A DNA stretch of 20,999 nt, taken from a virus. The notes beneath the pieces were generated by a model. It was not told where the DNA came from. It did not search any database and was given only the letters and a program-made list of their open reading frames with translations. The first letter of the stretch is position 1; each line of letters starts with the position of its first letter. Where the stretch lies: positions 1 through 20,999 of IMG/VR virus record IMGVR_UViG_3300030106_006336; one strand, written 5' to 3'. Positions 3,035 through 20,999 of the stretch are shown in pieces. A program made the position numbers and the translations under genes.

Positions 3035-3664
3035 GTGAAACTTACTAAGGCTAGCCTCCAAAAAATAATTATTGAAGAGTATGTGAAAGATACTTTTTTA
3101 GATGAAGCCATGAGCAAAAAGAAAGCTGAGCAAGTTTTGGCTTGGATTAGAGGCGAAGCTCCTCGCCCGGAGTGGCTTACAGATGATTATGGCCTTAGTG
3201 GCAAAGCAAAATCTGGCCAATCGCCTAATGACTCAAATGTGGATAGAGCAGCCCAAACAATGCCTATGGCTAATTTGGGCGACCAAGATCCTGAGCCTGC
3301 AAATGTTGAGGACAAAATCGTCAGCTTGGTACAAGATATGCCGGCCGAAGAGATGCTAGACTTATTTACAGCAGTTATTGAAAAGCTTGCCCCAGAGTAT
3401 ATTGAGCCACAGCGTAGGCAAATAGGTTTTAGAGAAGTAAAGTATATTATCCAAGAAGTATTAAACGAAGTTGGTGATTATCATTTTGGCTTTGGCGATG
3501 AAGAAAAATACGATGCTCTAGATCCACATGGTTTTGGCAGTATGTCAGATGCAGAATTAATGGACATGATTGAAAGAGAAGGTATGGAAGAGATTTTGGT
3601 TACTGATGGTGATGGCGATCTTATCAATCGTGAAGAAGTGATAGCGGCCTTGAAAAATGTATGA
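3035..3664 (+). CDS. Hypothetical acidic protein upstream of terminase
   Basis: I choose the GTG at 3035: it lies two bases after the preceding stop, has AAAGGA at 3021-3026 as ribosome binding site, and gives the N terminus MKLTKASLQKIIIEEYVKD, which matches the N-terminal helix type seen in neighbouring genes. The 209-residue product is acidic and helical, with a second similar helix at about 130-146 (GFREVKYIIQEVLNEVG). Near the C terminus, TDGDGDLINREEV (190-202) looks like a degenerate calcium-binding loop with one position missing. The gene occupies the place where a small terminase subunit is often encoded, but I see no helix-turn-helix or other feature that would support that. It overlaps the terminase start by 4 bases. 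Confidence 0.65.
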   Translation: MKLTKASLQKIIIEEYVKDTFLDEAMSKKKAEQVLAWIRGEAPRPEWLTDDYGLSGKAKSGQSPNDSNVDRAAQTMPMANLGDQDPEPANVEDKIVSLVQDMPAEEMLDLFTAVIEKLAPEYIEPQRRQIGFREVKYIIQEVLNEVGDYHFGFGDEEKYDALDPHGFGSMSDAELMDMIEREGMEEILVTDGDGDLINREEVIAALKNV

Positions 3665-5244
3665 GCTTCAAACTAACAAAAAAAGAAATATTAAAAGAAG
3701 TAGTTAAATGCGGCAAGGACCCATCTTACTTTCTTAAAACATATGCTCGCATCTCACATCCAATGCATGGGTTAATTTTATTCAATACGTTTGATTATCA
3801 AGACGAGTTGCTGAACGACTTCAACGATTATCGCTTTAATGTAATCAACAAGGGACGACAGCTTGGTATTTCCACACTGACTGCTGGATACATTGTGTGG
3901 ATGATGCTCTTCCACCGCGATAAGTCTATTCTTGTTATGGCAACTAAGTTTGAAACGGCTGGAAACCTTGTGCGTAAAGTTAAAAGCATTATGAAAAATT
4001 TGCCTGACTGGATTCGGATTGCCTCCATCTCTACAGATAACCGCACATCTTTTGAGTTATCAAATGGCTCAACTATCAAGGCAGCCTCGACTTCTGGCGA
4101 TGCTGGCCGCTCTGAAGCACTGTCTTTGCTGGTGCTTGATGAGGCCGCACACATTGATGGGCTTGAAGATTTGTGGACTGGTTTGTATCCTACACTTTCT
4201 ACTGGTGGTCGATGCATAGCTATATCAACGCCAAATGGTGTTGGTAACTGGTTTCATAAAACTTGTGTTGGAGCAGAAACAAAAGAAAACAATTTTAAAT
4301 TGACTACATTGATGTGGGATGTACACCCTGAGCGTGATGAAGAGTGGTTCAAGAAAGAAACCAGAAATATGTCACGAAGACAGATTGCACAAGAGCTTGA
4401 GTGCAACTTCAATACTTCAGGGGAAACAGTTATTGATCCTGACGCGCTGGAATGGATAGCAGCAAACGTAACTGAGCCAAAATACAGAACGGCTTTTGAT
4501 CGTAATTTTTGGATTTGGGAAGAGTACGATCCATCTTGCAATTATCTATTGACTGCAGACGTTGCCCGCGGAGACGGGGCTGACTATTCGACATTCCATC
4601 TCATTAAATTAGAGACATTACAGGTTGTCGGAGAGTACCAAGGTAAGCCAACTCCTGATTTATATGCTAACATGTTAAATCAGATTGGAAGAGAATTCGG
4701 AAACGCGATGGTGGTTATTGAAAATAATAGCATAGGATACACAGTTTTAGATAAATTAATTGACTATGCATACCCAAATATTTATTACTCTGTAAAATCT
4801 ACACATGAATATATTGAACAACACATGGCTGAACACAGGAACTCTGCCGTTCCCGGTTTTACCACATCATCTAAGACTCGTCCCTTGGTAGTAGCTAAAT
4901 TAGAAGAGTTTATAAGAAACAAACTAATTACTACATATTCATCCCGATTGGCAAATGAATTGAGAACATTTATTTGGACAAACGGAAAACCCCAAGCATT
5001 AAAAGGATACAATGATGATTTAGTTATGGCACTTGCGATTGCTTGCTGGGTTAGAGACACAGCTTTGCAGACAAATCAAAGAGATTTGAACTACAAGAAG
5101 GCTTTTGTTGATGCTATAATAACTTCACGAACCAGTTTTGACACAAAAATAAAAGGACAAATCGGGTACAAAGAAGATAGCGTTTTAGATAAAATGTCAA
5201 CGGCTGAGAACATGTATAAAGAATTTATGTGGATTATAAAGTGA
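3661..5244 (+). CDS. terL: Terminase large subunit (T4 gp17-like)
   Basis: This 527-residue protein is the DNA packaging motor: an ATPase that pumps DNA into the prohead and a nuclease that cuts the concatemer. The ATPase domain shows a Walker A-type loop at 64-72 (KGRQLGIST, the degenerate form usual in T4-like terminases), Walker B LLVLDEA at 156-162 with D160 and E161, and the coupling motif STPNG at 189-193. The C-terminal RNase H-like nuclease has the expected acidic residues: D300 in LLTADVARGDGADYS, E354 in VVIENNSIGY, and D452/D453 in GYNDDLVMAL. Length and domain order are normal and I see no intron or intein. The start ATG overlaps the preceding stop (ATGA). No small subunit is recognisable upstream. 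Confidence 0.96.
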   Translation: MSFKLTKKEILKEVVKCGKDPSYFLKTYARISHPMHGLILFNTFDYQDELLNDFNDYRFNVINKGRQLGISTLTAGYIVWMMLFHRDKSILVMATKFETAGNLVRKVKSIMKNLPDWIRIASISTDNRTSFELSNGSTIKAASTSGDAGRSEALSLLVLDEAAHIDGLEDLWTGLYPTLSTGGRCIAISTPNGVGNWFHKTCVGAETKENNFKLTTLMWDVHPERDEEWFKKETRNMSRRQIAQELECNFNTSGETVIDPDALEWIAANVTEPKYRTAFDRNFWIWEEYDPSCNYLLTADVARGDGADYSTFHLIKLETLQVVGEYQGKPTPDLYANMLNQIGREFGNAMVVIENNSIGYTVLDKLIDYAYPNIYYSVKSTHEYIEQHMAEHRNSAVPGFTTSSKTRPLVVAKLEEFIRNKLITTYSSRLANELRTFIWTNGKPQALKGYNDDLVMALAIACWVRDTALQTNQRDLNYKKAFVDAIITSRTSFDTKIKGQIGYKEDSVLDKMSTAENMYKEFMWIIK

Positions 5245-5252
5245 GAAAATAA

Positions 5253-7238
5253 ATGGCACCAAGAAACAATAGAAAAGGCAAAAACCCAGTTAACACACAG
5301 TCATCGTTGTTCAAATCGTTGACCAGACTGTTCTCTGGGCCTATCGTTACATATCGCTCACAATCAGGGCGCAAAATACGGAGACAACATCTTGACAAAT
5401 ACGCTGCAAGATTTAAGACTGCCTCTGGCCAACAGTTTAAAAAGCAAACTTATAATCCTTTGGATACCATAGCGTCTAACGCCATAGCAAACCAGAGAAG
5501 AAGCGAAAGATATATTGATTTTGATCAAATGGAGTACATGCCTGAGATTGCCTCATCGCTTGATATTTACGCAGATGAGATGACAACGTTCTCAGCGCTC
5601 CGTCCTATGCTGAATATCAATTGCACCAATGAAGAAATTAAAGCAGTGCTTGATTTGCTGTACCATAACATTTTGAATATTGAATATAATCTTTTTGGTT
5701 GGTGTCGTACTATGTGCAAATACGGCGACTTCATGCTTTACTTGGATATTGACGACAAGATGGGCGTTCAGTCTGCAATCGCACTGCCCCTGCAAGAAGT
5801 CGAGAGACTTGAGGGTTTAGATTCAACAAACCCTAACTACGTCCAGTATCAGTGGAACTCTGCCGGCATGACCTTTGAAAACTGGCAAGTTGCACATTTC
5901 CGTATATTGGGTAATGATAAGTACGCACCTTATGGCTCTTCTGTTTTGGAACCAGCCCGTCGTATTTGGCGACAGCTTACTCTTATGGAAGACGCTATGA
6001 TGGCATACCGTGTTGTTCGCTCATCCGAGCGACGTGTGTTTAAGATTGACGTTGGCGCAATTCCCCCACAAGATGTGGAAGGGTACATGCAAAAAATTGT
6101 ATCTCAACTGAAGAGGCACTCTATCGTTGATAAAGATACTGGTCGTGTTGATCTTAGATATAACCCTCTCTCAATTGAAGAGGACTACTACATCCCAGTG
6201 CGTCAGGGTTCGGCAACGGACATAACAAACTTGGCTGGTGGTTCAAATACTACGGAAATTGACGATATCAAATACCTCCGTGATAAGCTTTTCTCGGCTT
6301 TAAAAATTCCTCAATCATATCTTTCAATGGGCGAGGGAGCAACCGAAGATAAGACTACGTTAGCGCAGAAAGATATCCGTTTTGCCCGTACCGTACAAAG
6401 GTTACAAAGGACAGTTATACATGAACTTGAAAAAATCGGAATTATCCATCTTTATACTCTTGGTTTCCGCGGAGACGATCTTATTAATTTCAAACTTTCT
6501 TTGAATAACCCATCTAAGATTGCCGAGCTTCAAGAGATTGAGCACTGGAAAGCTAAGTTTGATATTGCAGGAGCGGCCACTGAGGGCTATTTCTCACGCA
6601 GATGGGTAACAGAAAACATATTCAATATGTCTCACGAAGAGTTTGCTAGAAACCAACGCGAAATGTACTATGATCGTAAGCATGATGCAGCCCTTCAAGC
6701 TGTGGCAGAAGCACAAGCTGCAGGCGCCGCCGGCGGTGGGGGAGGCTTAGACCTTGGTGGCGGAGACGACGCCGGCGGTGGCTTAGATCTTGGTGGTGAC
6801 GCTGGTGGAGACGCCGGCGCGGAAGGCGGTGGTTTAGACTTGGGCGCTGACGCACCCGCGGCTGAACCAGAAGGCGGTGGTGAAGATGATACACTACTAG
6901 CCGCCCCTCCCGGCTCTAGAAATGCTCCACGCTTGACACCCGGTTCAAAAGGTAAGGTCTACCATCCGGTTAAGACAGATTCTCGTCCTTCTGGTGCTCG
7001 CACAAGAAATTATGCACGTATCGCAACACCAGAAACAAACACATATCGCACCAATAATTTAGGTGGTGCCGAGCTTAGATCCTTGTCTAGAGGCATTTAT
7101 GAGGAAGAAGAGCCTATTTATTCATTGAATGAGCAAAAAGAAGAACAGAAAATGTTATCGATGAATAAATCTTTAACAAATCTTCTGGAAGATCTTAGCA
7201 ATAAAGAAAAGTTAACGGAGCAAAATGATGAAGGCTAA
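5253..7238 (+). CDS. gp20: Portal vertex protein (T4 gp20-like)
   Basis: The portal is the dodecameric ring at one head vertex through which DNA is packaged and to which the tail attaches. Supporting segments are EYMPEIASSLDIYADEMTTF (94-113), SSERRVFKIDVGAIPP (257-272), DDIKYLRDKLFSALKIPQSYL (337-357, here a key T4-portal signature) and TLAQKDIRFARTVQRLQ (369-385). The fold is complete by about residue 480. The remaining 180 residues are unusual: a Gly/Asp/Ala tract (491-548) with repeated GGGLDLGG units, a Pro/Arg/Thr-rich linker (550-605), and a charged helical end. At 661 residues it is longer than T4 gp20, mainly through this tail. It starts 8 bases after terminase, and overlaps the next gene by 14 bases. 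Confidence 0.95.
   Translation: MAPRNNRKGKNPVNTQSSLFKSLTRLFSGPIVTYRSQSGRKIRRQHLDKYAARFKTASGQQFKKQTYNPLDTIASNAIANQRRSERYIDFDQMEYMPEIASSLDIYADEMTTFSALRPMLNINCTNEEIKAVLDLLYHNILNIEYNLFGWCRTMCKYGDFMLYLDIDDKMGVQSAIALPLQEVERLEGLDSTNPNYVQYQWNSAGMTFENWQVAHFRILGNDKYAPYGSSVLEPARRIWRQLTLMEDAMMAYRVVRSSERRVFKIDVGAIPPQDVEGYMQKIVSQLKRHSIVDKDTGRVDLRYNPLSIEEDYYIPVRQGSATDITNLAGGSNTTEIDDIKYLRDKLFSALKIPQSYLSMGEGATEDKTTLAQKDIRFARTVQRLQRTVIHELEKIGIIHLYTLGFRGDDLINFKLSLNNPSKIAELQEIEHWKAKFDIAGAATEGYFSRRWVTENIFNMSHEEFARNQREMYYDRKHDAALQAVAEAQAAGAAGGGGGLDLGGGDDAGGGLDLGGDAGGDAGAEGGGLDLGADAPAAEPEGGGEDDTLLAAPPGSRNAPRLTPGSKGKVYHPVKTDSRPSGARTRNYARIATPETNTYRTNNLGGAELRSLSRGIYEEEEPIYSLNEQKEEQKMLSMNKSLTNLLEDLSNKEKLTEQNDEG
6723..6896 (+). 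repeat. Gly/Asp-rich repeat tract in portal C-terminal region
   Basis: Codons for portal residues 491-548 are almost entirely Gly, Asp, Ala, Leu and Glu. The unit GGGLDLGG or a close variant recurs at about residues 496-503, 508-515 and 525-531. The DNA is GC-rich compared with the flanking portal sequence and uses varied Gly and Asp codons, so the repeat is not a very recent duplication. The encoded segment is probably disordered, acidic and flexible. Confidence 0.8.
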
Positions 7239-8058
7239 ACATAATAAAAAACGCAATACTGCATTTGTTTATGAGGCTTTAATAAAAGAAGCGACTATCG
7301 CTGTTTTAAAGAACGACAATGAGAGAAGCAAGAAAGCAGTTGATATTATCAGAGAACATTTTAATAGCGACTCCCTGCTTACAAAGGATTTAGAGTGTTA
7401 CAGATCTCTTTATGAAAATCAATCTCTTGAGCCCGAAATGAGTGAAAAAATTCTAAGAGAAGCTAATATTTCCAGAAGAATGATTAACCCTGATGACCTC
7501 TTCGCTCAACAAACCAATATTATCAATGATGTGAACAAGACACTCTCGCCATCTGTGTTTAATAATTTTGTGCCTAACTATAAAGCTTTAGCCACAATTA
7601 ATAAAATGTTTAATACCTCATCACCGAAAGAAAAGATTATCTTAGAAACTAAAATAATTAACGAGATGTCTAATACTGCAGAAGTTGATGATAACCAAAT
7701 TGCTATAGACAATGTTGTTTACAGAACATTTGTCACGAAGTTTAATGAAAAGTACGACGAGCAACTTTTGGAAGAACAAAAAAACTTGCTGTCTCACTAC
7801 ATCACTTCGTTCTCTGACAATTCATTAGAACTAAAAATGTTCTTAAACGAAGAAATTGGCAGACTAAAAGAAAAACTTACGACTGCGAAGAACAGTGATG
7901 AAATAAACTCCGACTCTTCTATGTCAGATAAAACACAACAAATTTTAGATCGCTTAGATGGATATTCTCAAGAGACAATTAGCGAAAACGTTATTATGAC
8001 TGTGCTCAAAACACAACAACTTGTAAAGGAAATATTCGAAGATGTCAGTCAAGATTAA
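7228..8058 (+). CDS. Helical protein between portal and protease, probable head-assembly factor
   Basis: The 276-residue product is mostly helical and charged, beginning MKAKHNKKRNTAFVYEALIKEA. I recall proteins with a KKRNTAFxYExLIKE start beside the portal gene in marine T4-like phages, always without an assigned function. Tandem ATG codons lie at 7225 and 7228; GGAG at 7217-7220 is better spaced (7 bases) for the second, so I use 7228. It overlaps the portal gene by 11 bases. In T4 the small core proteins gp67 and gp68 occupy this place between portal and protease, so a prohead-core or assembly role is plausible, but I see no sequence similarity to them. No membrane segments or catalytic motifs are visible. 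Confidence 0.7.
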   Translation: MKAKHNKKRNTAFVYEALIKEATIAVLKNDNERSKKAVDIIREHFNSDSLLTKDLECYRSLYENQSLEPEMSEKILREANISRRMINPDDLFAQQTNIINDVNKTLSPSVFNNFVPNYKALATINKMFNTSSPKEKIILETKIINEMSNTAEVDDNQIAIDNVVYRTFVTKFNEKYDEQLLEEQKNLLSHYITSFSDNSLELKMFLNEEIGRLKEKLTTAKNSDEINSDSSMSDKTQQILDRLDGYSQETISENVIMTVLKTQQLVKEIFEDVSQD

Positions 8059-8620
8059 TTTTATACCCTCTGACGAGCCAATTACTATTAAAGTTGGTGC
8101 TGCAGCCCGCAAGCCTACTCCGTCTGTCACTCTTGAATTGAACATTCGCAAGAGCCTTAGTGGTGATCTAATGATTTTTGACCACGCAGATATTGATATT
8201 GTAATGTCATCTAAGAATAACAAAATCACTGCTTTCCCTAAAGAGACAATGAACGATTTAGTTTATGGCGCTCAAAATAGATTATTTGCATTCTTACGCA
8301 AGAAAGGTATTGTGGTTGCTGAATCTGTGCAGGGTGGCTCTTATTATGGAGCGCTTGAAGCCCTGCTAGAAACACCCAACAGTGACAAGTTAAATGCCGC
8401 AAAGCTTGCTCTTATTAACATTAGTAAATTTATTGAAGAAGAGCGCCCATACTTTGAAAACATTGAAGCTATGGTCTCTGCCACTGACTCAGAATTTGTG
8501 GATCCAGACAAGGCCGATTCAACAGAGCTTGGTGAAGTACCACAGCAAGCTCAACAAGGTTCTATCCGACCCGGATACGTTAGAGACCCGTATTCGTTCT
8601 CTTATATGTACACTGTTTGA
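8042..8620 (+). CDS. Conserved-type phage structural or assembly protein, 192 aa
   Basis: The N-terminal 65 residues are beta-rich (VKINFIPSDEPITIKVG, SVTLELNIRKSLSGDLMIFDHADIDIVMSS), followed by helices (ETMNDLVYGAQNRLFAFLRKKG and an ALEALLETP segment) and a Gln/Pro-rich tail ending RDPYSFSYMYTV. I do not recognise a named family. It lies between portal and protease and overlaps the preceding gene by 17 bases, with a weak GGAAA ribosome binding site inside that gene, so it is probably made together with it. An accessory head-assembly role is inferred from position only. Confidence 0.65.
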   Translation: MSVKINFIPSDEPITIKVGAAARKPTPSVTLELNIRKSLSGDLMIFDHADIDIVMSSKNNKITAFPKETMNDLVYGAQNRLFAFLRKKGIVVAESVQGGSYYGALEALLETPNSDKLNAAKLALINISKFIEEERPYFENIEAMVSATDSEFVDPDKADSTELGEVPQQAQQGSIRPGYVRDPYSFSYMYTV

Positions 8621-9138: not shown

Positions 9139-9503
9139 TGGAATTATTAACTTTTATATTATGTGCCTATGGCCTTACACAAATTTTAGTGTACAGCGAC
9201 CTTCCACTTTTAAAGAGATGGCGACCATCAAGAGACGCCGCCGGCGGATACGGCAAAGTATTTCACTGCCCAATGTGCATGGGATTTCACGTTGGGTGGC
9301 TTTTAATGCTGCTTTCTCCGTTCACAGAACTATTTAGCTATGATGTTACAGTAGCAAACTTTTTCCTTCTTGGTTGGTTGTCATCTGGCACATCCTATGT
9401 AATGAACATGGTATTCGGAGATAATGGAGTTAAACATGAACACAAACACGCAAACGAACAGTCTTGCCACTTGGACAAGAAAGTGGATGCTTCAGCCAGT
9501 TAG
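9138..9503 (+). CDS. Small membrane protein with FHCPMCMGFHVG motif
   Basis: The 121-residue product has three hydrophobic segments at about 1-18, 50-64 and 72-92. Before the second is FHCPMCMGFHVGWLL (42-56). A Cys-x-x-Cys-x-Gly-Phe pattern entering a membrane helix is known in the DUF1360 family of small membrane proteins, whose function is unknown, and I recall phage homologues; this link is by motif only. The C-terminal tail is hydrophilic with His residues (VKHEHKHANEQSCH). The start ATG shares bases with the preceding stop. T4-type proheads assemble on the inner membrane, so a membrane protein encoded beside the protease could be an assembly anchor; that is inference. Confidence 0.7.
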   Translation: MELLTFILCAYGLTQILVYSDLPLLKRWRPSRDAAGGYGKVFHCPMCMGFHVGWLLMLLSPFTELFSYDVTVANFFLLGWLSSGTSYVMNMVFGDNGVKHEHKHANEQSCHLDKKVDASAS

Positions 9504-9527: not shown

Positions 9528-10133
9528 ATGGGCCAGAAGCTACTTAGAGAATTTTATGAACTGTGCGAAGGCGGCGTATGCCAAGACCTTCTTACTGAAG
9601 ATGAAAAGCGTTATGTTGCCGATGGCGGCATGATGCTTACTGGCAAACTTCAAGAAGCCGATGTATTAAATGGAAACCAGCGCGTATACCCATATAAAGT
9701 ATTGGCCCGAGAAGTAAAGAACTATAAAAAGCTTGTAGGTGAAAACAGAGCACTAGGTGAGTTAGATCACCCAGATGACTCAGTTATTAATCTTAAAAAC
9801 GCATCTCACTTAGTCACTGATATATGGATGGAAGATAAAGCCGTAATGGGTAAGGTGAAAGTGCTAAACACTCCATCTGGTCAGGTTTTAAAATCTCTGG
9901 TAGAAAGTGGAGTCAAGCTTGGTATTTCTAGCCGCGGCATGGGTTCTGTTTCTGAATCAAATGACACCACCGTTGTTCAAGAAGATTTTCAGTTAATATG
10001 CTTTGACTTTGTTTCTGAGCCCTCGACGCCCAATGCTTTCATGATGAAAGAAGCAAAAGATTACAACAATCAAGTATTCACCAAAGCCGACCGTATTAAC
10101 AGACTGTTAAACGAGGTTTTGGATTGTGAGTAG
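9528..10133 (+). CDS. gp21: Prohead core protease (T4 gp21-like)
   Basis: This 201-residue serine protease matures the prohead by cutting scaffold, capsid and internal proteins, usually after Glu in (L/I)xE sites. The catalytic His is in GELDHP (H81) and the Ser is in GISSRGMGSV (S134 or S135), both hallmark segments of T4-type prohead proteases. FDFVSEPSTPNAFM (159-172) is also typical of the family. Length is close to that of T4 gp21 (about 210 residues). AAAGGG at 9514-9519 gives a good ribosome binding site 8 bases before the ATG. The end overlaps the next gene by 8 bases, so the protease and a probable core protein are translated together. Confidence 0.93.
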   Translation: MGQKLLREFYELCEGGVCQDLLTEDEKRYVADGGMMLTGKLQEADVLNGNQRVYPYKVLAREVKNYKKLVGENRALGELDHPDDSVINLKNASHLVTDIWMEDKAVMGKVKVLNTPSGQVLKSLVESGVKLGISSRGMGSVSESNDTTVVQEDFQLICFDFVSEPSTPNAFMMKEAKDYNNQVFTKADRINRLLNEVLDCE

Positions 10134-11532
10134 TCAAAAACAAATACACGAGAACTGGAACAAGTTCTTGAAGGAACGACCCAGCACTACTTTACCGGGC
10201 CATAAACAGATACAAGGCTCCGGCTTCGCGAAACTAGAACCTGAAGAAGACCCACGCGTTATGGGTCCAGACAAGCAAGCTGATGCGCCCGCAGCCTTGG
10301 CTTGGTGGGAAACACTGCCAGAACCACAAAAGAGCGATCTCCAGAAAGCCGGCGAAGCGGCAATGATTAATGCATGGCGCGAAGCTGGCAAACCAGAAGC
10401 TGGTGGAGAAGAAGCAGCAGAAGAGCCTAGTAAAATTATAGCTGGCATTAACAGCCTCTCTTATCCTGACTCACTTCTCAACATGTTAAAGAATGTTGAA
10501 CTTACTGGACCTCAAAAGCGTCAATTATTGTCACTAATGCTAAAAGCTACAGAACAGGACGACATTGTTCTGGAAGCAATAGGAGATGCACAGCGTGATC
10601 CAAGAACTTTCTCTCCTAAAACTTCTGAAAGATTAAATGATTTGATAGATTCTTTTAATTTGAAGCCTAAAGCTAAAAACAACTTAGAAAAAGTTCTTAA
10701 TAAATGGGCCAAGATGAATACAGTCAAATTTAGCAAGGCTCCTAGCTATGGCACAGCTTTATCTCCAGATGAACTTCCACCAGAAGCCCCTATGGATGAT
10801 GAAGATACCTCAGATGAACCTACCGTGACCGGCAGGGCAGTTTCGCCAGAAGCCCCTATGGATGATGAAGATACCGCAGATGAGCCTACCGTGACCGGCC
10901 AGCCCGAGACCGCTCCACAATCACAGCCTGATGAGATTGAGATGGATGGCGTTCGATACAGTTCCGTTGCTGGTCAAGCATGGGATTCAGTTAATTCTAA
11001 ATGGATAGAAAACCCAACACCCGAAGACGCGATTAATGCTATTATGCGAGAAATGGGTAATTGGCGCGCGGGTGAAGATGTCAAATATAAAGATGCTAGA
11101 AAACAATTAGAGTATCTAGAAGCTTTGGTCAAACGTGGGGGAGGGTTATCTATTGAAGATACGGCCACCGGTGATAAAGACATAATCCCTAAGTGGGTTC
11201 CCGCAAGGAGTGATGACCCGCGCGCCGCAGGAAGTTATGAGTTGTATCCAGATAATAATTATACTTATGCCCTATACACACCCTTCAGTATGGAAAACTT
11301 TTTTAAACAAATGAGAGCAAACGTTCCTAAGATTTTGGATCCTTTCGGGGCCCGTGCTGGCATGAAACTTTCAAAAAACGTGAGCCCTAGATCTCAAGAA
11401 TTTTTAAAGATGTTTGTCAAAGAATTTAAAAGAGTATTTCAATCAAGAAGAAAGCCGGAAGACCCCAAAAATCTTGAGGAATCATTTGACCGTTTACAAA
11501 CTTTAGCTGGAATTAACAAGAGGATATTATGA
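10126..11532 (+). CDS. Probable head-core or internal protein, 468 aa
   Basis: Translation starts at GTG 10126 inside the end of the protease gene. The N terminus (QIHENWNKFLKERPS) resembles the targeting peptide of T4 internal proteins, and the C terminus (SFDRLQTLAGINKRIL) carries the same LAGIN as the scaffold C terminus. Between them are a helical region (105-200), two tandem 22-residue acidic repeats (PEAPMDDEDT..DEPTVTG, 219-262), a short folded segment around MDGVRYSSVAGQAWDSVNSKWIE (given here by its key VRYSSV and WDS parts, about 273-295), and a C-terminal helical domain (295-450) with DPFGARAGMKLSKNVSP. I do not recognise the family. It follows the protease where T4 encodes the scaffold, but the scaffold here is at 18521, so it is more likely an additional core or internal protein. 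Confidence 0.7.
   Translation: MSSQKQIHENWNKFLKERPSTTLPGHKQIQGSGFAKLEPEEDPRVMGPDKQADAPAALAWWETLPEPQKSDLQKAGEAAMINAWREAGKPEAGGEEAAEEPSKIIAGINSLSYPDSLLNMLKNVELTGPQKRQLLSLMLKATEQDDIVLEAIGDAQRDPRTFSPKTSERLNDLIDSFNLKPKAKNNLEKVLNKWAKMNTVKFSKAPSYGTALSPDELPPEAPMDDEDTSDEPTVTGRAVSPEAPMDDEDTADEPTVTGQPETAPQSQPDEIEMDGVRYSSVAGQAWDSVNSKWIENPTPEDAINAIMREMGNWRAGEDVKYKDARKQLEYLEALVKRGGGLSIEDTATGDKDIIPKWVPARSDDPRAAGSYELYPDNNYTYALYTPFSMENFFKQMRANVPKILDPFGARAGMKLSKNVSPRSQEFLKMFVKEFKRVFQSRRKPEDPKNLEESFDRLQTLAGINKRIL
10780..10911 (+). repeat. Two tandem 66-bp coding repeats
   Basis: Copies start at 10780 and 10846 with the sequence ccagaagcccctatggatga and stay nearly identical for about 53 bases (differences include cctcagatgaa against ccgcagatgag). 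Each encodes 22 residues: PEAPMDDEDT, Ser or Ala, DEPTVTG, then a variable end. The high identity at synonymous positions indicates a recent in-frame duplication. Confidence 0.9.
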
Positions 11533-11951
11533 AAAAAGCTGACCTAAAAAAATTAATCAAACCATTAGTGAAAGAATGTATTCACGAAGTGCTTATTGAA
11601 GAGGGCGTTTTATCTAACGTTGTTTCTGAAGTTGCCAAAGGAATGCAGACTAATGTTGTTGTTGAAAGCAAAAAGCAAGATGAACAGCTATTTAATGAAG
11701 ACTTGCAAATGAAGCGAAGTCAAGAAGAAGGCCGTTTGAAGCTACAAGAGCATAGAAAAAAATTATTAGAAGCTGTTAGTACAGATGCTTATAACGGTGT
11801 TGATTTATTTGAGGGCACGACTCCCATGGCTGCTCAGTCTGAACCGAACGCCGGCTCAGTTGATCTAGGAGATCCCGGTAGTTCTGGCGTTGACATTTCT
11901 TCGCTTATGGGCGGTGCTTCACAAGTCTGGAAACAAATGAACAGGAAATAG
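11529..11951 (+). CDS. Hypothetical phage protein, MKKADLKKLIKP type
   Basis: The 140-residue product begins MKKADLKKLIKPLVKECIHE and continues VLIEEGVLSNVVSEVAKGM, a long amphipathic helix that I recall from conserved hypothetical proteins of T4-like marine phages. A charged coiled-coil region follows (about 48-82), then a Gly/Ser/Asp-rich tail with VDLGDPGSSGVDISSLMGG. The start helix is of the same kind as in the 1898 and 3035 genes, and contains IEE and LIEEG, which fit T4-type protease site rules. It overlaps the 468-residue gene by 4 bases (ATGA). A structural or core role is likely by position; no function is known to me. Confidence 0.7.
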   Translation: MKKADLKKLIKPLVKECIHEVLIEEGVLSNVVSEVAKGMQTNVVVESKKQDEQLFNEDLQMKRSQEEGRLKLQEHRKKLLEAVSTDAYNGVDLFEGTTPMAAQSEPNAGSVDLGDPGSSGVDISSLMGGASQVWKQMNRK

Positions 11952-11952
11952 T

Positions 11953-12192
11953 ATGGGTAGCAATGTAGTAGTTCGCTCGAAAGAGTGTCGTGGCAATCAC
12001 GAAAGAATGATAAGACGCTTTATCAAAAAATGCAAAAAAGAAAGAATTATTGAAGAGTATAAAGATAGGCGAAGATACAAAAAGCCCTCTGAAAAGCGCC
12101 GAGAAAAACGAGCGAGAGCTGAAAGAGAAAGAAAAAGGCAGGAACTTAAAAGAAAGAGACTGTTAGAAAAACGTAGTAGAAGAAAAAATTAG
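11953..12192 (+). CDS. rpsU: Ribosomal protein bS21 homologue
   Basis: The 79-residue, extremely basic product aligns without gaps to bacterial bS21: RMIRRFIKKCKKERIIEEY (18-36) matches E. coli ALRRFKRSCEKAGVLAEV, and DRRRYKKPSEKRREK (38-52) matches RRREFYEKPTTERKR. The C-terminal Arg/Lys helix is also typical, and length is slightly above the bacterial 71 residues. bS21 binds the small ribosomal subunit near the 3' end of 16S rRNA and helps initiation. Phage-borne bS21 genes are known, notably in aquatic phages. This one lies 1 base after the preceding gene, has AGGAAA at 11943-11948, and is the last gene before the first real intergenic gap, so it is expressed in the late structural operon. 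Its effect on translation here is inference. Confidence 0.9.
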   Translation: MGSNVVVRSKECRGNHERMIRRFIKKCKKERIIEEYKDRRRYKKPSEKRREKRARAERERKRQELKRKRLLEKRSRRKN

Positions 12193-12195
12193 ATA

Positions 12196-12202
12196 CTATT
12201 TA
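12196..12202 (+). promoter_or_regulatory. CTATTTA motif, candidate late-promoter core
   Basis: The gap 12193-12233 holds CTATTTA (context ATACTATTTACTA), 31 bases before the ATG at 12234. Four further copies lie in the other gaps of the structural block. It differs from the T4 late promoter TATAAATA but has similar size and composition. A promoter role is inferred from repetition and placement. Confidence 0.45.
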
Positions 12203-12233
12203 CTACGAATGATTTAAATTTTGGAGAATTAAC

Positions 12234-12701
12234 ATGTCAAATTGGTCAGACCCATCATGGAAAATGCGAGTAGGAGTTAACCATGCTCCTGCTTATCAAG
12301 TTAGCGGCCGTCCCTTTGCTTCAGGAGGCATTGATGCTTTACCTGATCAGGCAGTTGTAAACTTCCCATATGTTACAAGATGGGTTCAAGTGATCAACTC
12401 CACTTCAGCATCAATTAAAGTCGGATTCGGTCCTAACTCTTTTGATCCCGCAATTAATAACTATTTTGTAATTCCTAGCGGTTCTAATAGTGAACGACTG
12501 GAGGTTAAGGTCAGCAGACTTTATGTTAGTGGTGGTAGCGATTCAGGTAGAAGCGGCGGAGATCTTGGTATCTCTGTCGTTGCAGGACTTACAAGTATTG
12601 ACGCTAGCCAAGTTAACCCTCCGACAGGCTCTAGAGATCAGTGGCACTTAGAGCCCGGTAACAACATTAGCTGGTCAGGTTCATATAACGGAGTCGGCTA
12701 A
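12234..12701 (+). CDS. Probable virion surface protein, YQVSG type
   Basis: The 155-residue product begins MSNWSDPSWKMRVGVNHAPA and then YQVSGRPFASGG; beta-rich segments follow (VVNFPYVTRWVQVINSTS, SIKVGFGP, NYFVIPSGS, LEVKVSRLYVSGG, LGISVVAGL). I recall a family of marine T4-like phage structural proteins with a N-terminal xYQVSGxP motif followed by FPxVT strands, but it has no firm function; a decoration or fibre-base role would fit a small all-beta protein. It is the first gene after the first real intergenic gap, with GGAG upstream and a CTATTTA motif, so it probably opens a new transcript. Ends 3 bases before the next start. Confidence 0.65.
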   Translation: MSNWSDPSWKMRVGVNHAPAYQVSGRPFASGGIDALPDQAVVNFPYVTRWVQVINSTSASIKVGFGPNSFDPAINNYFVIPSGSNSERLEVKVSRLYVSGGSDSGRSGGDLGISVVAGLTSIDASQVNPPTGSRDQWHLEPGNNISWSGSYNGVG

Positions 12702-15767: not shown

Positions 15768-15795
15768 GCCGAGATTGTTTTACAATTTCTTTTTT

Positions 15796-15828
15796 GGATG
15801 TCTCCCGAAAGGGGGGCATCCTTTTTTT
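15796..15828 (+). terminator. Strong intrinsic terminator
   Basis: GGATGTCTCCC (15796-15806) pairs with GGGGGGCATCC (15811-15821) in an 11-bp stem with two G-U pairs, closed by a GAAA tetraloop (15807-15810) and followed by seven T (15822-15828). This is a textbook Rho-independent terminator. It lies 28 bases after the 14343 gene stop. A weaker 5-bp stem (ATTGT/ACAAT, 15774-15786) with a T-rich tail precedes it. Confidence 0.92.
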
Positions 15829-15832
15829 CGTA

Positions 15833-15839
15833 CTATTTA
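15833..15839 (+). promoter_or_regulatory. CTATTTA motif just after the terminator
   Basis: CTATTTA begins 5 bases after the terminator T tract and 19 bases before the ATG at 15859. Since the terminator would stop most transcripts, the gene behind it needs its own promoter, which makes this copy the strongest support for the motif being a promoter element. Confidence 0.5.
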
Positions 15840-15858
15840 GAATGAGGAAGGTAAAAAC

Positions 15859-18414: not shown

Positions 18415-18520
18415 CAACATATAAAACTACAACAGACGGTGATTACTAATTGTAAAAAAATGGTTTTTGTAGATAGTGGACACTATTTACAGTGAATTAC
18501 TGTTTTATAGGAGTTTTTAC
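18415..18520 (+). promoter_or_regulatory. Intergenic region before scaffold with CTATTTA and two dyads
   Basis: This 106-base gap contains CTATTTA at 18483-18489, 31 bases before the scaffold ATG. A dyad ATAGTG/CACTAT (18473-18478 and 18481-18486) overlaps its start, and ACAGT/ACTGT (18489-18493 and 18499-18503) follows, then TTTTAT. AGGAG at 18508-18512 is the scaffold ribosome binding site. I see no strong terminator after the fibre gene. A promoter, possibly with an operator or a short leader hairpin, is the likely content. Confidence 0.5.
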
Positions 18521-19834
18521 ATGTCATCTTTACTTGAGCAAGCATTCGTTGATGCTAAGGCACTTAAGGAGGCAGCCTTGAAAAATGCCGAGGCTACTAT
18601 TGTCGAAAAATATTCGGCTGAGGTTAAGGAAACCTTAGAAAAAATTCTTGAACAAGATGCTTTAGGCTTAGGAGCTGCAGCAGGTGATGCAATGGGGGCT
18701 GCACCGATGGGCGGTGGCGCTGACGGCATAGAAGATGTGCCGCTTGGCGCTGCAGAGGGAGAGGATCTTTGCCCTTGTGATGATGAGGGAGAAGAGTCTA
18801 CAATTAAAATTAATTTTGATGAGCTTGCCGAGACACTTCAAAAACTTGAAGAAGACTTGGATACTTCTGTTATTGAGGAAGATGAAGAAATTGAGCTTAC
18901 CGAAGAAGATTTTGCTGCCCTTACTGAAGATGATGACGAGGACCCACAGGGTTCAGGAGAAATGGCTGGCGATTCTGGCAGTGCAGGCGAAGGAGAGGCT
19001 GCAGCAGCCCAAACCGCCGCGGCTGGAGAGCAAGATGAAAAAGCTATGAAGGGAATGGAAGAAGAAATTAACTTTGATTCACTCGTAGATGCAATTATGG
19101 AAAAGATTTCGCTTGATGAGGCTGAAGAAGAAATTGAAGAAGCCAAAGGCGAAAAAGGTGATGCAGATCCACTTGATGGAGAGCGCGCTAAATTTGATAA
19201 AGATCATGATGGTGTCCCAGACGGCGCAGATAAAGACAAAGATGACCCGGATGTTAAAGAAGAAATTGAATCCGACTCTTTGATTGATGCTGTAATGGAA
19301 AAACTGTCAGTTGATATGGGAGCATCCTTGTCCGGTTGGGCAGGACGCTCCTCTGATGAAAAGAAATTTGAAATGGAGAAGGAGCTTGCCCACCGACGCA
19401 ACACTGAACTCCAAGACGAATTAAACGATTTGAAACAAGCTCAAGAAGAGTTGGTTTTTGAAAATAACCAACTCAAAGAGAAGCTTCAAAACTACGAAAA
19501 CGTAGTTGAGCAATTAAAAGAAAGCGTCACAGACGTTAATCTTTCTAATGCTCGTTTATTATACACGAACCGCGTGTTAAGAAATACCTCCTTAAATGAG
19601 CGACAAAAAGATAAAGTTGTCGAAGCGATTTCTAAAGCTGGTTCTGTTCCGGAAGCAAAGACAATTTTTGAAACGCTTCAAAGCACAGTGGAGTCTACGC
19701 CTAAACGTGGGCCACAATCACTGAGCGAAACGATCAACCGTCGTTCTTCCATTCTTCGTGCTAGCAGCCGCAGTGAGGCGAAACCCGCCGATCCGCTGTC
19801 AGATAGAATGAAGAAACTAGCAGGTATTAATTAA
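18521..19834 (+). CDS. gp22: Prohead core scaffold protein (T4 gp22-like)
   Basis: The scaffold fills the prohead, shapes the capsid and is destroyed by the prohead protease before DNA entry. I start it at ATG 18521 (AGGAG 8 bases upstream); an in-frame GTG at 18476 lies before the binding site. The 437-residue product is very acidic and helical: a N-terminal helix (MSSLLEQAFVDAKALKEAAL), Gly/Ala-rich and Glu/Asp-rich stretches with many (L/I)xE sites, a coiled coil at about 285-335, and NLSNARLLYTNRVL (340-353) with NERQKDKVVEAISKA, typical of T4-like scaffolds. It ends MKKLAGIN. Unusual are a DKDHDGVPDGADKDKDDPD segment (226-244) and a duplicated DSLxDAxMEKxS helix flanking it. Position directly before the capsid gene matches T4. 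Confidence 0.9.
   Translation: MSSLLEQAFVDAKALKEAALKNAEATIVEKYSAEVKETLEKILEQDALGLGAAAGDAMGAAPMGGGADGIEDVPLGAAEGEDLCPCDDEGEESTIKINFDELAETLQKLEEDLDTSVIEEDEEIELTEEDFAALTEDDDEDPQGSGEMAGDSGSAGEGEAAAAQTAAAGEQDEKAMKGMEEEINFDSLVDAIMEKISLDEAEEEIEEAKGEKGDADPLDGERAKFDKDHDGVPDGADKDKDDPDVKEEIESDSLIDAVMEKLSVDMGASLSGWAGRSSDEKKFEMEKELAHRRNTELQDELNDLKQAQEELVFENNQLKEKLQNYENVVEQLKESVTDVNLSNARLLYTNRVLRNTSLNERQKDKVVEAISKAGSVPEAKTIFETLQSTVESTPKRGPQSLSETINRRSSILRASSRSEAKPADPLSDRMKKLAGIN
19196..19252 (+). other. Calcium-loop-like Asp motif within the scaffold
   Basis: Scaffold residues 226-244 read DKDHDGVPDGADKDKDDPD. The spacing DxDxDGVxDxxDxDxDDxD resembles thrombospondin type 3 repeats and EF-hand loops, which bind calcium through such Asp side chains. 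Metal binding is inference. The motif lies between two copies of a helix with DSL(V/I)DA(I/V)MEK(I/L)S. Confidence 0.6.
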
Positions 19835-19852: not shown

Positions 19853-20999
19853 ATGGCTGGTATTATTGAAAGATTGACCGAAGGTGTTGTCAATCGTGAT
19901 ATGCGTGCCGAAGGTCACGCCCTACTGTCAAAGTGGGAAAAGACTGGACTCTTAGAAGGACTCGGTGATGAGCGCACCAAGAATGGTATGGCTCGTCTTC
20001 TTGAGAACCAAGCTAAGGAGCTTCTTCGCGAAGCAACCGCCATGAACGCTGGTGATGTGCAAGGTTTTGCTGCCGTCGCATTCCCTATCGTTCGTCGCGT
20101 TTTCGCAGGCTTGATCGCAAACGATCTTGTTTCTGTACAACCTATGAGCCTCCCAAGTGGACTCATTTTCTTCCTTGACTTCACATTCTCAGAAGATCTT
20201 GGTGGAGATGGAACACAAATTGGTAAGCTTGGTAACGTTGCTGGAAAATCCATCTACGGTACTGATCGAGTTGGTGCTGAAATCACCGGCGGTGTTGACA
20301 TTGTTGACGTCCGTGGTGGTGACCTTTCTGGTCCACGCGCTTCCGCTCGCGGTTACGCTTATGGCTCTCCAAGTGGTTCGGACGCATCTGTTGTAGGTGT
20401 TTACGTCACTGGTGCTGCTATTTTCCCAAGCATGACCAACCTTGATAGAAAGTTAATCGAATTCGATCCTGACCTTCTTTCACATGATGATGGCACTGGT
20501 ACTGCCACACACGCATATGCAGTTATCGCAATCTCTGCATCTGCTCTTGATCAGCTTGATCTGGACAACTTGTCCGCTATTACCTCTTCTGCCACAACTA
20601 CAGTAAGCGCTGCAGACATGTTGGCTGGTGAGACTGGTAAGACAAGAATTGTTGGTAATGGTGCACGTCTTGTACGTCGTCTGACCCGCCCAGTTCCAGA
20701 GGGTATCGCTTCAAGCCTTAAGATTGGTTTGGACGATGCTACCGCTGGTGATTCAATCCTTCTTACTTGGGTTGGTAGAACCGGTTCTGCTGCTGATGAG
20801 GTCCGTGTGACTGGTGCTAACCTTGGTCAGGACGGTGCTCCCGCGCCTACTAAGGCGATGAGTGCTTCTTGTACTTGGTTGTTCCCACAAACCGACGACT
20901 TCTCCAATGGTGATAACTCCATTGGTTCTGTCCAAGGTACTACAGTTTGGGGCCTTGAAGGTCAAGCAGACATTCCTGAGATTGACATCAAGGTTGACA
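19853..20999 (+). CDS. gp23: Major capsid protein (T4 gp23-like), 5' part
   Basis: The frame is open from ATG 19853 to the window end, 382 codons, with AAGGAG 10 bases upstream. It begins MAGIIERLTEGVVNRDMRAE and contains the signatures of T4-like major capsid proteins: KWEKTGLLEGL (28-38), FPIVRRVFAGLIANDLVSVQ (77-96), QPMSLPSGLIFFLDF (96-110). The N-terminal 60 residues are helical and would be the propeptide; LLRE-A (57-61) fits the T4 protease rule and lies close to the T4 gp23 cut at residue 65. A serine/glycine-rich stretch follows around 125-160. T4 gp23 has 521 residues, so about a quarter or more is missing here. Codon use favours highly expressed forms (about 8 of 12 Asn codons are AAC). 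Confidence 0.96.
   Translation, partial: MAGIIERLTEGVVNRDMRAEGHALLSKWEKTGLLEGLGDERTKNGMARLLENQAKELLREATAMNAGDVQGFAAVAFPIVRRVFAGLIANDLVSVQPMSLPSGLIFFLDFTFSEDLGGDGTQIGKLGNVAGKSIYGTDRVGAEITGGVDIVDVRGGDLSGPRASARGYAYGSPSGSDASVVGVYVTGAAIFPSMTNLDRKLIEFDPDLLSHDDGTGTATHAYAVIAISASALDQLDLDNLSAITSSATTTVSAADMLAGETGKTRIVGNGARLVRRLTRPVPEGIASSLKIGLDDATAGDSILLTWVGRTGSAADEVRVTGANLGQDGAPAPTKAMSASCTWLFPQTDDFSNGDNSIGSVQGTTVWGLEGQADIPEIDIKVD

Follow-up and report, generated by a model that had tools for sequence, protein, structure and literature searches.

Mizuno et al. described 1310 viral genomes or contigs bearing a gene for ribosomal protein bS21, mostly aquatic and with the gene under purifying selection, and found bS21 to be by far the commonest ribosomal protein in uncultivated viruses, at 88% of those detected (PMC6375957). 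In that study, the bS21 of Pelagibacter phage HTVC008M (accession number AGE60443) was incorporated into E. coli 70S ribosomes. Chen et al. (2022) reported bS21 genes next to head genes in Bacteroidetes phages, co-transcription of the two in an infection judged to be at a late stage, and a structural gene within ten genes of bS21 in 388 of 900 published bS21 phages; the divergence between phage and bacterial bS21 was located in the N-terminal helix (PMC9723584). That phage bS21 genes can lie next to head genes has already been published, as has the ribosome-swap model (PMC9723584, PMC6375957). What is added here is a fixed slot for the gene, an origin separate from that of the HTVC008M gene, a candidate promoter motif and a plain account of ribosome binding site strength.

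Two named phages are related to the one described here through TerL. Microcystis phage Mel-JY01 (accession number PP395634; locus L133) carries an annotated RpsU at 20395–20622, on the same strand and in the equivalent slot, with the protease gene, one further gene and then bS21. Its TerL matches at 44% and strong Shine-Dalgarno (SD) sites are also frequent at its gene starts, but its bS21 is far diverged (hmmsearch with the clade profile, E 1.1e-9; end branch 3.0). A limited check found no literature on Mel-JY01, which is a named phage in which the bS21 question could be addressed. Within the phage collection, the nearest TerL is that of Flavobacterium phage immuto (accession number MW353177; 47%), which also has a similar order of head genes, but neither bS21 nor SD use was found in the 29-kb stretch around its head genes.

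The window analysed here is a stretch of 20,999 nucleotides, bases 1–20999 of a 44,627-base IMG/VR record (IMGVR_UViG_3300030106_006336). An open reading frame of 79 codons on the plus strand (11953–12192), which a sequence-only reading had identified as a bS21 gene, scored above the Pfam cut-off of 27 bits for Ribosomal_S21 (PF01165; E 3.9e-9, 36.5 bits) over residues 14–60, confirming that identity. A second match was to PHROG 21469 ('ribosomal protein S21'; E 0.0015), and the record gave no other bS21 match. In a structure predicted with AlphaFold2, helices at residues 16–41 and 45–78 are joined at KKPS (mean pLDDT 83; pTM low, 0.42). A Foldseek search of the PDB with this model gave no match, which means little for two long helices. 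The gap-free alignment to bacterial bS21 claimed earlier holds from RRF to KPS, but not before RRF, where the phage protein has an extra residue or residues that include the C of ECRGN in the alignment with host proteins. A tblastn search of the phage collection with the bS21 query found no match, perhaps because the low-complexity filter masks this K/R-rich protein, as Mel-JY01 does encode one.

The genes around bS21 were then compared with Pfam and PHROGs, and all those named here lie on the plus strand. Genes for the terminase large subunit (3661–5244; phrog_2, E 3.9e-56), the portal protein (5253–7238; phrog_213, E 4.4e-70) and a T4 gp21-like prohead protease (9528–10133; PF03420, E 1.4e-30; phrog_207) are followed by two genes of 468 codons (g10126; 10126–11532) and 140 codons (11529–11951), which match neither Pfam nor PHROGs, by bS21, and by a run of genes to the major head protein (19853–20999, continuing past the window end; phrog_138, E 2.1e-15). 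None of the genes between bS21 and the major head protein scored above the Pfam cut-off, and the first of them, g12234 (12234–12701), has a strong SD and no assigned function. The placement of bS21 within a head-gene block was thus borne out. The bS21 reading frame begins 1 base past the stop codon of the 140-codon gene, as had been noted, but the description of this neighbour as a probable core-protein gene is unproven. The gap that follows bS21 (41 nt; 12193–12233) is, in our gene calls, the first of at least 25 nt past position 1527, consistent with the earlier description of it as the first real intergenic gap.

The locus resembles those that Chen et al. describe in Bacteroidetes myoviruses, where bS21 lies a few genes from terL, the portal, prohead protease and major capsid protein genes, is separate from bacterial bS21 in trees and diverges in the first helix (PMC9723584). 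However, in the phages of that report bS21 and the head genes are on different strands, whereas here it is codirectional with a 1-base junction; their bS21 has an aromatic residue at position 54, where the protein examined here has R; and their predicted hosts are Bacteroidetes. The use of SD sites by the phage examined here is a further contrast.

A search of viral contigs with the bS21 query found 166 relatives, and the counts that follow use the best 80 of these 166, many of which are near-copies (65 distinct bS21s, 66 with that of the window). The 140-codon gene lies directly upstream of bS21 in 78 of the 80 loci, and on the other two contigs only 129 (L003) and 4 (L065) bases precede bS21, too few to show the neighbour. 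A converse search with the 140-codon gene, meant to avoid circularity, found 48 loci (8 on contigs already among the 80), with bS21 downstream in 46, directly in 45 and about 1 kb further on in L130; the remaining two contigs (L095 and L114) stop no more than 80 bases from the 140-codon gene. The pair is thus present wherever the sequence extends far enough (78 of 78 and 46 of 46 loci), and no contig that reaches the bS21 slot lacks bS21. The gene stands after the prohead protease wherever the loci include a protease gene. Further upstream, gene order is mostly shared by the loci that cover it, though not always; only some loci have a relative of g10126, which most lack, and the order of g8042 and g9138 is exchanged in L038.

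For bS21, pN/pS against eight close relatives was 0.06–0.21, within the range of 0.03–0.44 for seven other genes of the block, and the gene is under purifying selection. The bS21 gene is a real, strongly conserved gene that is standard in the head block of an aquatic T4-like phage lineage. A chance reading frame at 11953–12192 was ruled out by the Pfam match, the purifying selection and the fixed neighbour. In four loci (L006, L008, L009 and L010), the protease is only 61–63% identical to that of the window and terL, where present (L006 and L009), is 93–94% identical; the protease seems to have been swapped next to a conserved bS21.

The gap after bS21 contains the sequence ACTATTTA (12195–12202, plus strand), which also occurs in the window at 517, 2448, 9329, 14306, 15832 and 18482, with further copies elsewhere in the record. 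Counts were made with the motif CTATTTA, of which the record has 16 copies on the plus strand and none on the minus strand, and the 80 loci have 333 against 13 by strand. Of the 80 loci, 76 (52 distinct contexts) have a copy in the 90 nt 3' of the bS21 stop codon, beginning 0 or 3 nt past it, compared with 307 of 9616 control windows; three of the four loci missing it (L064, L065 and L067) have CTACTTA instead. The motif is also upstream of g12234 in 51 of 54 loci and of g18476 in 39 of 39, at a median of 38 nt from the ATG. Elsewhere there were 0–3 copies per strand in each of four other 20-kb stretches of a 194-kb relative and, in about 29 kb, 9 and 3 copies by strand in immuto and 5 and 2 in Mel-JY01. 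From this distribution, ACTATTTA is probably a late-promoter element of the phage clade. The T4 late promoter, TATAAATA, was looked for and is not enriched. A limited literature check found no published phage late promoter with the CTATTTA motif, which is no proof of novelty.

Two copies further upstream may bear on the transcription of bS21 itself. The copy of ACTATTTA at 9329–9336 (plus strand), within the end of the preceding gene and 198 nt 5' of the protease start, is a candidate start for a protease-to-bS21 unit; among the 67 loci whose sequence extends far enough upstream, 30 have CTATTTA 150–230 nt 5' of the protease, usually at 177 or 198 nt, whereas 302 of 9946 control windows, each of 87 nt, contain it. 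The CTATTTA at 11688–11694 (plus strand), inside the 140-codon gene and 265 nt 5' of the bS21 start, is a possible internal start for bS21, with an equivalent about 265 nt upstream in only 9 of 80 loci. The bS21 gene may be read as the last gene of a unit starting upstream of the protease or, for some of the phages, within the 140-codon neighbour. The gene listed from the GTG at 18476 has the motif (18482) after the GTG, which makes the ATG at 18521 (MSSLLEQ), 39 nt past the motif, the probable true start. A terminator-like hairpin and T run, seen by eye at 15768–15858 immediately 5' of a promoter-like motif, suggests separate late units.

The interpretation preferred here, with a probability of about 0.6, is that the phage has its own bS21, which would be made late together with the prohead proteins, enter host 30S subunits and replace or supplement the host bS21 there. 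The place of bS21 in the 30S subunit is known to be exchangeable. The benefit would be enough initiation-competent 30S subunits while strongly SD-led capsid mRNAs are translated. Late expression with the virion genes, as first proposed from the DNA alone, is consistent with the candidate motif and with what is reported for other phages (PMC9723584).

The same location would also suit a bS21 packaged in the prohead with the core, injected with the genome and active at the start of the next infection, a possibility raised in the Discussion of Chen et al. (PMC9723584), and the position of the gene after the prohead protease wherever one is present is in keeping with it. However, placement among late genes is accounted for without packaging, and the HTVC008M gene, which has cobS on one side and a hypothetical gene and then a heat-shock gene on the other, is outside the head block, indicating that a head location is not general. 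Packaging of bS21 as virion cargo is therefore considered unlikely.

Whether the protein has kept the features of a ribosomal component was assessed from 19 columns that are nearly invariant by residue class among 53 host bS21s. The window protein retains 14 of these, among them the turn residues K, P and S, and it also keeps most of the basic positions conserved in hosts. The other five are altered in it, and at two of these the change extends to almost every phage row. A host A is replaced by M in 27 of 33 phage rows and retained in none of the 33, a host K by I in 29 of 33 (retained in one) and a host G by R or K in 27 of 33, and these consistent changes are mainly within or adjoining the first helix. 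Given the altered columns, binding by the phage bS21 could differ from that of the host protein, and a preference of ribosomes with phage bS21 for phage mRNA is possible, arising from the altered first helix. The clade-wide changes in helix 1, together with the very basic C-terminal helix, would also fit a basic two-helix protein that is no longer a ribosome component and regulates phage mRNA or genome packaging. However, the KPS turn and the conserved basic positions would be needless off the ribosome, and such a role appears improbable.

The strength of the ribosome binding sites was examined using duplex energy with the anti-SD, with values of −5 kcal/mol or below scored as strong; counts for the record use first-ATG/GTG gene calls of at least 80 aa, and counts across loci use ATG starts only. 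In the record, 23 of 40 gene starts are preceded by strong sites, compared with 29 of 283 in-frame ATGs inside genes (Mann-Whitney p 1.2e-9), and the phage uses Shine-Dalgarno sites. As yardsticks, strong sites were found at 1 of 28 starts in immuto and 12 of 27 in Mel-JY01. The bS21 gene itself has a moderate site, AGGA at 11943–11946 (plus strand; energy −4.0), just 5' of the stop codon of the upstream gene, and its own SD is strong in 15 of 42 loci. The major capsid protein gene has a strong SD at 23 of 23 starts across loci (mean −10.6), followed by the protease (23 of 61), portal (3 of 50) and terL (0 of 26) genes. Among the genes without an assigned function, strong sites were found for g13473 (66 of 66), g14343 (45 of 47), g12234 (53 of 53), g18476 (37 of 37) and g8042 (6 of 30). 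Other stretches of the 194-kb relative have 35 to 67% strong sites, so the head block is not exceptional in SD strength.

In T4 biology, the capsid protein is needed in many copies and the portal and terminase in few, and SD strength fits the expected copy number for the genes of known function (three or four, using first-ATG starts). As SD strength is conserved for each gene and, where function is known, tracks expected copy number, the range of ribosome binding sites, which had been offered as a hint of selective initiation, is explained without special initiation and is in keeping with ordinary SD-tuned expression; variation with 23 of 23 strong sites for the capsid gene and none of 26 for terL was rejected as a sign of it. 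The site before 12705, earlier called nearly absent, has CGGAG upstream with a duplex energy of −6.1 kcal/mol.

The host was sought mainly through tRNA genes, all of them from relatives, as no tRNA was found in the record of the window. In the closest long relative (G007, the record of locus L005; TerL about 95%), a 10-kb stretch has six tRNAs, all of which encode CCA, as do 16 of 18 in the records of four more relatives; among the bacterial tRNAs checked, CCA is encoded in six proteobacterial loci and absent in 3 of 3 Bacteroidia loci. In searches covering three classes (185, 190 and 198 genomes), with class names inferred from MAG titles, the tRNA cluster had its best DNA match in an alphaproteobacterial genome (89%, 104 bits), followed by gammaproteobacterial (85%, 88 bits) and Bacteroidia (88% over 66 bases, 84 bits) matches. 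With modest confidence, a proteobacterial, perhaps alphaproteobacterial, host is favoured. A scan of genomes for bS21 relatives found eight loci, of which L134, L135 and L140 carry relatives of other phage genes of the window, indicating that they are phage contigs in bacterial bins. Related contigs were binned in MAGs of Flavobacteriaceae, Acidiferrobacteraceae and Micavibrio, and these labels were not taken as proof of host.

The host bears on a further explanation, in which at least some members of the clade infect a Bacteroidota-like host and the phage bS21 replaces an anti-SD-hiding host bS21, switching ribosomes from SD-blind to SD-reading and favouring the strongly SD-led capsid mRNAs. 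In F. johnsoniae, a strong-SD mRNA yielded about 3-fold more protein on ribosomes with bS21 Y54A (PMC9976891). Counting from the KPS turn, the residue that corresponds to F. johnsoniae Tyr54 is Y in 14 of 14 sampled Bacteroidia bS21s, while the 66 distinct phage bS21s have R (65) or Q (1), and hiding of the anti-SD by the phage bS21 in the Bacteroidetes manner was ruled out as none of the 66 has an aromatic residue there. The strong SDs in the phage, set against 1 of 28 in a Flavobacterium phage that is also the source of the nearest TerL, and the contig binned in a Flavobacteriaceae MAG would agree with such a switch. However, alphaproteobacterial (R, 20 of 20) and gammaproteobacterial (K, 19 of 19) bS21s also lack the aromatic residue, related contigs were likewise found in Acidiferrobacteraceae and Micavibrio MAGs, and both the encoded CCA and the best tRNA matches point away from Bacteroidia. 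Such a switch is thus very unlikely.

The ancestry of the phage bS21 was examined in two trees, in accordance with the comparison to host bS21 that the sequence-only reading had called for. The first included 33 phage bS21s (24 distinct, including that of the window, and 9 others), 53 bacterial ones drawn from three classes and 5 further sequences; of the host rows, bac_L171 (X residue) and L218 (false hit) were dropped, and the near-copies L137 and L143 were left out. The phage bS21s were apart from the sampled Alphaproteobacteria, Gammaproteobacteria and Bacteroidia, and candidate-phylum rows L136 and L139 were beside them on long branches. In the second tree, which omits L136, L139 and Mel-JY01, includes HTVC008M, and has only 73 columns and a bootstrap that had not settled, 32 head-block bS21s are on one side of a branch with support of 100/98, forming a separate clade nested in no host class. 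The HTVC008M bS21 grouped with Alphaproteobacteria (95/86 with one row, 100/97 with 20 alphaproteobacterial rows) and looks like a separate acquisition. For the deep origin, a joint clade with Alphaproteobacteria (AU p 0.457) or with Bacteroidia (0.374) was not rejected.

As HTVC008M groups with Alphaproteobacteria and the head-block bS21s form their own clade, bS21 seems to have entered phages at least twice, in the head-block lineage not recently. A recent host copy was ruled out, as the head-block clade is apart from the sampled host classes in both trees and is not a fresh copy of a host gene. Phages do capture host bS21, HTVC008M being an example, but a recently captured passenger gene of little consequence is scarcely credible here, being largely refuted by the pN/pS values, the separate clade and the fixed upstream neighbour. 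With its bS21 in a fixed place, phage-specific and apparently old, the clade is a clean test case for why phages keep bS21, and its shared first-helix changes and clear SD-led late mRNAs would permit a comparison of the phage protein with host bS21, using matched mRNAs in a laboratory strain.

Some bS21s depart from the common form. In the alignment, the L023 bS21 (around 8001–8228 of that locus) has the KKPS/second-helix segment duplicated in tandem. The bS21s of L126–L131, L135 and L140 have a shorter, more host-like N-terminal stretch and are mostly on long branches, and their genes are in or near the same slot.
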